The translations under genes and the position numbers were made by a program. A stretch of DNA of 64,000 nt, taken from NCBI RefSeq assembly GCF_036429475.1, contig NZ_CP144125.1, positions 1,922,001 to 1,986,000 of the forward strand. Direction: 5' to 3'. The notes beneath the pieces are model-generated. The model searched no databases. It was not told the origin of the DNA and saw nothing but the letters and a program-made list of their open reading frames with translations. Source of the stretch: Halalkalicoccus sp. CGA53. GTDB lineage: Archaea > Halobacteriota > Halobacteria > Halobacteriales > Halalkalicoccaceae. Of the stretch, positions 13,689 to 21,950 are shown piece after piece (the stretch's first letter is position 1; every line of letters starts with the position of its first letter).

Positions 13689-14051
13689 CTATCGGTTTTG
13701 ATAGAGTGGGTATACGGACAGAATGACAACCCCTAGTGCAATAGCAAATACACCGATGGCGTAATAGAGTCTCGAAGTAGCCATATAAACTGTTGGGGGG
13801 ACTGTCACCAAAATTAAAATCATCGACCCTACGCTAAGACCCTGACCGACCCTCTGTGCTCTTCTCTGTGAGCGAATGCTGCCCTCGACGTTCCTGAGGA
13901 GTTCGTTCTGCTGTCTTATCTCTCGAAGTTGTTCTTCGTGACGCACTTTATCAGATGAACTCACCTTTTCGACCAGTCCCGAAATATCGATATTCTGTGA
14001 CTCACTTTCCGCGCTCCCCACCGACTCTAGCTGAGACTCAAGATCGTTCAC
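13689..14051 (-). CDS. Small coiled-coil membrane protein of unknown function
   Basis: The 120 residues, from a GTG start, begin with a polar helical region (about 1-68, rich in Glu, Gln and Ser) and end with two hydrophobic helices (about 72-90 and 95-115). The codon use is clearly more AT-rich than that of neighbouring genes. The frame is open upstream for 23 more codons that also look coded (IQERQTVTWSDTIGHIGAQ), up to tandem stops TGA TAA shared with the short frame before it. The true N-terminus may therefore lie further upstream in an intact relative. No function can be given. Confidence 0.6.
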   Translation of the reverse strand: MNDLESQLESVGSAESESQNIDISGLVEKVSSSDKVRHEEQLREIRQQNELLRNVEGSIRSQRRAQRVGQGLSVGSMILILVTVPPTVYMATSRLYYAIGVFAIALGVVILSVYPLYQNR

Positions 14052-21685: not shown

Positions 21686-21734
21686 CGACCGGTCGATCAC
21701 AACCCTTAACTAGCACACGGCGGTACGATCTGGT

Positions 21735-21809
21735 AGCGGGATGGGATAGCCAGGAGATTCCGCCGGGCTCATAACCCGGAGATCGGTAGTTCAAATCTAC
21801 CTCCCGCTA
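21735..21809 (+). tRNA. Initiator tRNA-Met (anticodon CAT)
   Basis: The 75-nt gene folds normally: acceptor arms AGCGGGA and TCCCGCT with discriminator A, D arm, anticodon stem CCGGG-CTCATAA-CCCGG, and T arm GTAGTTCAAATCTAC. Three consecutive G-C pairs next to the anticodon loop (GGG...CCC) and the A1-U72 pair are initiator features. CCA is not encoded. The last 24 nt are repeated 141 bp downstream. Confidence 0.95.
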
Positions 21810-21950
21810 TGTTTTCGTCGAACTCGCGTCTCACGCGGCTACGCCTCGTTCGACGGTGAGTTCGACAGAACTCGCACGGAGTGCATTTGAACTAGACCAC
21901 GAGCGACCGAAGGGAGCGAAGTGGGCGTAGTTCAAATCTACCTCCCGCTA
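21786..21950. other. tRNA 3'-end direct repeat, probable attachment-site scar
   Basis: The last 24 nt of the tRNA gene (21786-21809, from GTAGTTCAAA to CCCGCTA) recur without mismatch at 21927-21950, and the flanks after both copies are alike (TGTTTTCG and CTTTTCG). Between them are about 117 bp without a gene. A repeat of a tRNA T arm and acceptor 3' end is the classic product of integration by a tyrosine recombinase. The short spacing suggests a scar or a minimal remnant, as no integrase is present. Confidence 0.7.

Follow-up and report, generated by a model that had tools for sequence, protein, structure and literature searches.

Halobacteria probably harbor a family of mobile, non-coding palindromic cassettes inserted at the 3' ends of tRNA genes

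Partial tRNA copies that lie beside tRNA genes in haloarchaea have been interpreted as leftovers of integrated viruses. In archaea, tRNA 3' ends are frequent integration sites (PMC8371274). In Haloferax gibbonsii, integrative elements with duplicated 3' tRNA ends have been reported, and the passages considered here describe 11 partial tRNAs of strain LR2-5, several directly adjacent to the full gene, as tRNA remnants (PMC7921747). A different group comprises the PATEs and terminal-only IS200/IS605 derivatives of Haloquadratum walsbyi, which are short and non-coding, have palindromes near their ends, and are thought to be mobilized in trans (PMC3119063). The locus described below belongs, with a probability of about 0.6, to a family, specific to Halobacteria, of non-coding palindromic cassettes that are mobile and target the 3' ends of tRNA genes in a site-specific manner.

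The window, i.e., the whole stretch of 64,000 nucleotides that was analysed, lies on a haloarchaeal chromosome (G000:C2:1922001-1986000). A single tRNA gene was detected in the repeat region: an initiator tRNA-Met(CAT) gene on the forward strand at 21735-21809 (Rfam tRNA match; 21734-21810 according to ARAGORN). Its 3' end forms the direct repeat GTAGTTCAAATCTACCTCCCGCTA at 21786-21809 and 21927-21950, identical over 24 nt with 141 bp from start to start, and extendable to 29 nt at 93% identity. The exact duplication claimed by the first-pass annotation was reproduced in both coordinates and identity. The 18-mer TTCAAATCTACCTCCCGC has just two occurrences in the entire 4.04-Mb genome; therefore, the repeat is not due to chance. 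The truly duplicated portion was estimated as about 20-21 nt, from G53/T54 to the discriminator base 73, which corresponds to the last 21 nt of the gene (21789-21809) and to 21930-21950 of the second copy. The three extra identical bases (GTA) are explained by the inserted unit ending in CGTAG where the tRNA has GGTAG, and this unit end is common (18 of 96 units). We also considered a degraded tandem tRNA gene as the origin of the second copy. This was ruled out, since ARAGORN and Rfam found one tRNA only, no 5' half precedes the second copy, and hairpins fill the space.

The inserted non-coding unit occupies the 120 nt between both tRNA 3' ends (21810-21929, forward strand), the boundaries being set by analogy with empty and filled sites in relatives. 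Directly 3' of the tRNA lies hairpin 1, the left palindrome (21814-21870), for which the predicted single-stranded DNA fold gave z -2.46 on the + strand and z -3.75 on the - strand. It is followed at 21885-21892 on the + strand by an inverted T-arm, the reverse complement of the T loop of the same tRNA (ATTTGAAC versus GTTCAAAT). Hairpin 2 (21885-21937, + strand) starts with this inverted arm, is of a type ending in GGGCGTAG, and has the T-loop copy as its 3' foot; its predicted fold gave z -3.13, and 0 of 200 shuffles were as good. Hairpin 2 of this type was observed at 86-92% identity in other families, there with an unrelated hairpin 1. An Rfam search returned no family covering the inserted unit. 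Downstream of the second copy, the + strand segment 21951-21995 contains CTTTTCGAGGCGAA, as does the sequence after the last copy at another locus (L081), and also GTGACCGTG, which is similar to a hairpin 2 end. Judging from this sequence comparison, the segment is probably a decayed leftover of an older unit.

For each of the 43 tRNA genes of the same genome that match the Rfam tRNA model, a recurrence of the final 20 nt, counted from the T loop, was sought within 250 nt, with up to 4 mismatches allowed. A downstream copy of the own 3' end was present for 11 of the 43, namely Asn, Gly(TCC), Gly(CCC), Lys(CTT), Val(GAC), Val(CAC), iMet, Ser(TGA), Leu(TAA), His, and Leu(TAG), always 91-127 nt away. 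Upstream of the 43 genes, no copy was found at this threshold, the best match having 6 mismatches. The tRNA-by-tRNA scan covered three haloarchaeal genomes in total; in one from a second family of the same order (G031), 14 of 29 tRNAs had such a copy. Among 52 tRNAs of non-haloarchaeal members of the same phylum, none had such a copy, one plain tandem duplication aside. That duplication, in the outgroup genome G197 (L357), comprises the 3' end of tRNA-Ala(CGC) together with its flanks. The comparative set finally comprised 113 units at 82 tRNA loci and 24 tRNA kinds. The initiator tRNA gene, which had been considered a noteworthy target, is hence not special, as units recur behind at least 24 tRNA kinds; this recurrence behind many tRNAs also ruled out the att scar of a single provirus.

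The distribution was further investigated with a tRNA-free pattern, composed of unit sequence and generic T-loop letters only, in 84,980 bacterial and archaeal genomes. Among the matches listed, all 80 loci belonged to Halobacteria or to MAGs titled haloarchaea or Euryarchaeota, representing many genera, and 111 of the 125 pattern matches had a tRNA on the same strand no more than 362 nt upstream. The remaining 14 were read as contig ends or as tRNAs missed by ARAGORN, several of them apparently intron-bearing. The copy differed from the upstream tRNA by 0-3 mismatches in 97 of the 111, and apparent values of 14 or more were errors of the tail parser. Separately, a short motif around GCGACCGAAGGGAGC, a quasi-palindrome around CGAGCGACCGAAGGGAGCGA, was observed at nine further places (L196-L204), where the 3-kb segments inspected contained no tRNA.

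The units are non-coding and about 80-160 bp long (mostly 80-130 bp), and their parts follow a fixed order: hairpin 1, the inverted copy of the own tRNA's T-arm, hairpin 2, and finally the duplicated tRNA 3' end. Each unit lies exactly between base 73 of the tRNA and the duplicate of bases ~53/54-73 of the same tRNA. The start is T-rich and ACTTYT/TTTTCN-like, and the end is CGTRG-like. Hairpin 2, whose foot is formed by the inverted T-arm and the T-loop copy, falls into a few types, each with conserved mismatches; one ends in GACCGTGG|TTC, with a tandem G.A pair and a bulged G, and that of the window ends in GGGCGTAG|TTC. In 25 distinct type-I hairpins from Halobacteria, 94% of the cells were paired, compared with 25-45% in slid controls, and 39 double changes were counted versus 15.5 +/- 2.8 in shuffled data. 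This covariation shows that the structure of hairpin 2 is real. The inverted T-arm agreed with the copy at the variable base 57 in 114 of 123 units and disagreed in 9, and the match continued into the T stem, which is specific to the tRNA (permutation P=0.0002). In diverged copies, the inverted arm matched the tRNA rather than the copy at 57 versus 12 positions.

Empty and filled sites differed by exactly the unit plus ~20 bp. At the initiator site within one genus, the empty genome (G057) reads tRNA-CTTCTGGACGAACGCCACAC and the filled one (G013) reads tRNA-unit-TTCAAATCTACCTCCCGCTA-CTTCTGGACGGACGCCACAC; at tRNA-Gly(CCC), the empty/filled pair G059/G031 shows 20 bp duplicated, with ATGGCTGAGCAYCGCGAAGCCATGTTCG next in both. 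These exact sites in congeners indicate that the units insert precisely and duplicate ~20 bp of their target. The detected copy number was unequal between the congeners G031 and G059 at 14 of 18 unit-bearing tRNAs, although part of the absences are decayed copies past the mismatch limit; the upstream flanks were mostly 86-98% identical. Two Haloferax gibbonsii strains differ at the same plasmid locus in their proximal units (128 vs 138 bp), while the old distal unit is near-identical, and in the MAG G138 apparently one locus occurs with and without an additional proximal unit. Accordingly, the insertion hotspot at the tRNA 3' end that had been suggested for this locus was borne out by the empty and filled sites and by tandem arrays.

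The arrays hold 1-3 units. In 26 of them, the distal copy was more diverged than the proximal one in 16, equal in 9, and less diverged in 1; this polarity is measured by copy mismatches alone and could also be produced by conversion with the tRNA. Types of hairpin 2 are common to different tRNA kinds and families with unrelated hairpin 1, and the converse was also observed, indicating that the modules are reshuffled. Homologous duplication also contributes, as hairpin 1 is sometimes common to array neighbours; in some arrays the neighbouring units are near-identical (L075). In two genomes, a pair of initiator-like tRNA genes is separated by 23-26 kb, and each gene of the pair has a separate unit array (G100:C1:787000-811000 and G154:C1:1163000-1190000; L062-L065), and near-identical hairpin modules occur in both arrays of G100. 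Complete initiator tRNA-Met genes were also observed on megaplasmids of Haloferax, Natronorubrum, and Halomicrobium (L112-L116); the five plasmid matches opened were all such genes, and both of those from Haloferax gibbonsii (L113 on pHG2 and L116 on pHGLR2) had unit arrays.

The units were compared with integrase-bearing elements and viruses. The own genome, with 10 PF00589 matches, contains an integrative element at tRNA-Cys(GCA) (G000:C2:476625-492771; L176, L177), which has a ~16-nt core, a far copy of the tRNA end at 476625, and an integrase frame of 435 aa adjoining that copy. Inverted sequences, TTACAATCCAAAGCCCG and CGGGCTTTGGATTATT, flank this element. Inspection of the element for unit hairpins revealed none, and its ends differ from the units. 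Could the units nevertheless be scars of ordinary tRNA-integrated viruses or plasmids, i.e., left and right ends fused after internal deletion? The frequency of archaeal integration at tRNA 3' ends and the duplicated ends in Haloferax gibbonsii cited above agree with this explanation, but the units have a uniform size over 24 tRNA kinds, and no large element with the same ends was found in the genomes examined. Specifically, in about 20 genomes inspected over the 6-8 kb downstream of the initiator tRNA, no element with cargo and unit ends was seen. An exact 18-mer search of 130 genomes gave, among the matches listed, no pair of copies with cargo between them near this tRNA; the distant pairs in G100 and G154 were second complete tRNA genes. 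Pattern scans of 2.9 million viral contigs, three in all, yielded only one true unit; on that contig, a complete tRNA-Glu(TTC) precedes the full unit and a copy of the 3' end (L205, IMGVR_UViG_3300000875_000004, 13744-13930). A search of phage records yielded no related match, and no unit was present at the attP of the HF2 virus, a partial tRNA-Thr. Considering these data, an origin of the units as such scars is quite improbable. The first-pass annotation had read the locus as an integration scar, and this reading holds in part: the empty and filled sites support precise insertion at the tRNA 3' end, with one copy in the gene and the other at the far side, but the 120-bp insert is no leftover of an element bearing an integrase and has an architecture recurring behind at least 24 tRNA kinds across Halobacteria.

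Selection for a functional trailer RNA, whose hairpins would serve termination, 3' processing, or regulation and would be multiplied by tandem duplication, accounts for the conservation of hairpin 2 with its covariation and internal loops, and for units lying strictly downstream of tRNAs in sense orientation. The excess of G.A, G.G, and G.T over C.T, C.C, and A.C mismatches in hairpin 2 also agrees with it, but the G.T/A.C bias is opposite in hairpin 1, so that this strand test, meant to tell RNA from DNA, gave contradictory answers for the two hairpins; an RNA structure is an equally good reading of the hairpins. Most tRNAs of the same genome, and the orthologous tRNAs of congeners, lack a unit, and the preference of the inverted arm for the tRNA over the diverged copy (57 vs 12 positions) indicates that the pairing is not maintained in place. 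We therefore regard a trailer RNA as unlikely. Passive tandem duplication with growth of palindromes by replication slippage at tRNA genes is highly improbable: the plain tandem duplication outside Halobacteria and the near-identical neighbouring units (L075) are of the kind it would produce, but unit types are common to several tRNA kinds and families, and the insertions in congeners carry new sequence at a fixed boundary. Precise insertion with ~20 bp duplication, reshuffled modules, rapid turnover, and neutral decay, the last indicated by diverged copies that the inverted arm mostly does not match, favor mobile cassettes over a maintained trailer RNA.

In the best reading of these data, the cassettes are non-autonomous and are moved in trans by a putative recombinase. 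No excised or circular form of a unit was seen. The agreement of hairpin 2 with the T-arm suggests as the recombining site the T-arm of the tRNA together with the folded structure that imitates it within the unit. The trans-acting recombinase, possibly of the tyrosine type and active at the T-loop (TTCRAAT, 7 nt), would recognise the T-arm together with the folded or cruciform hairpin 2. New cassettes would enter at the tRNA-proximal end, because the full T-arm site would be held by the tRNA alone, and once inserted they would decay neutrally. Tentatively, and with considerable doubt, we suggest an integron-like haloarchaeal system with gene-less cassettes, in which tRNA genes are the entry sites and folded palindromic cassettes, each with a hairpin foot fitted to the T-arm of its tRNA, are inserted by a putative recombinase. 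If the units are mobile cassettes, an unrecognised element is rewriting the 3' flanks of many tRNA genes across a whole archaeal class, remnants of integrative elements are being overcounted, and a directly testable system is available for a putative recombinase acting on any tRNA via the shared T-arm.

In the literature searched, which lay largely outside subscription journals, no description of the unit was found. The partial tRNAs of Haloferax gibbonsii LR2-5 are the same kind of object, described in main-text passages that contain no unit, hairpins, or family (PMC7921747). As in the scar of an integrative element or provirus, a direct repeat of the tRNA 3' end is present, but no integrase, cargo, or carriers with the same ends were found near the initiator tRNA in the genomes examined, and the ends of the tRNA-Cys element are different. 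With tRNA-integrated archaeal elements that encode tyrosine integrases (SNJ2 type and others; PMC8371274), the units share the tRNA 3'-end target and the restoration of the tRNA by the incoming copy; they differ in having neither integrase nor cargo, in their generic occurrence at 24 or more tRNA kinds, and in their palindromic ends. A target site duplication (~20 bp) is shared with MITEs, whereas terminal inverted repeats are absent, as the start and end of the unit are not inverted repeats of each other. The likeness to integron cassette arrays (attC hairpins) is one of form only: a tandem array beside a fixed site, apparent proximal entry, and an imperfect hairpin with its 3' foot as the exchange site. 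The polarity of integron arrays is indirectly matched by the more diverged distal copy (16 arrays vs 1) and by strain differences at the proximal position. Unlike integron cassettes, the units have no ORF and no attC consensus, and their exchange site is GTTCRAA instead of the attC core GTTRRRY. The geometry of the units, which resembles that of a leader and repeat, also brought casposon-like or CRISPR-like insertion into consideration, in which a Cas1-type integrase would act at the tRNA site. Compared by description, the units resemble PATEs in being short and non-coding with near-terminal palindromes; PATEs have no target duplication and no described tie to tRNAs (PMC3119063), whereas the units duplicate ~20 bp and occur only behind tRNAs. 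PATEs are the nearest known non-autonomous elements to the units.
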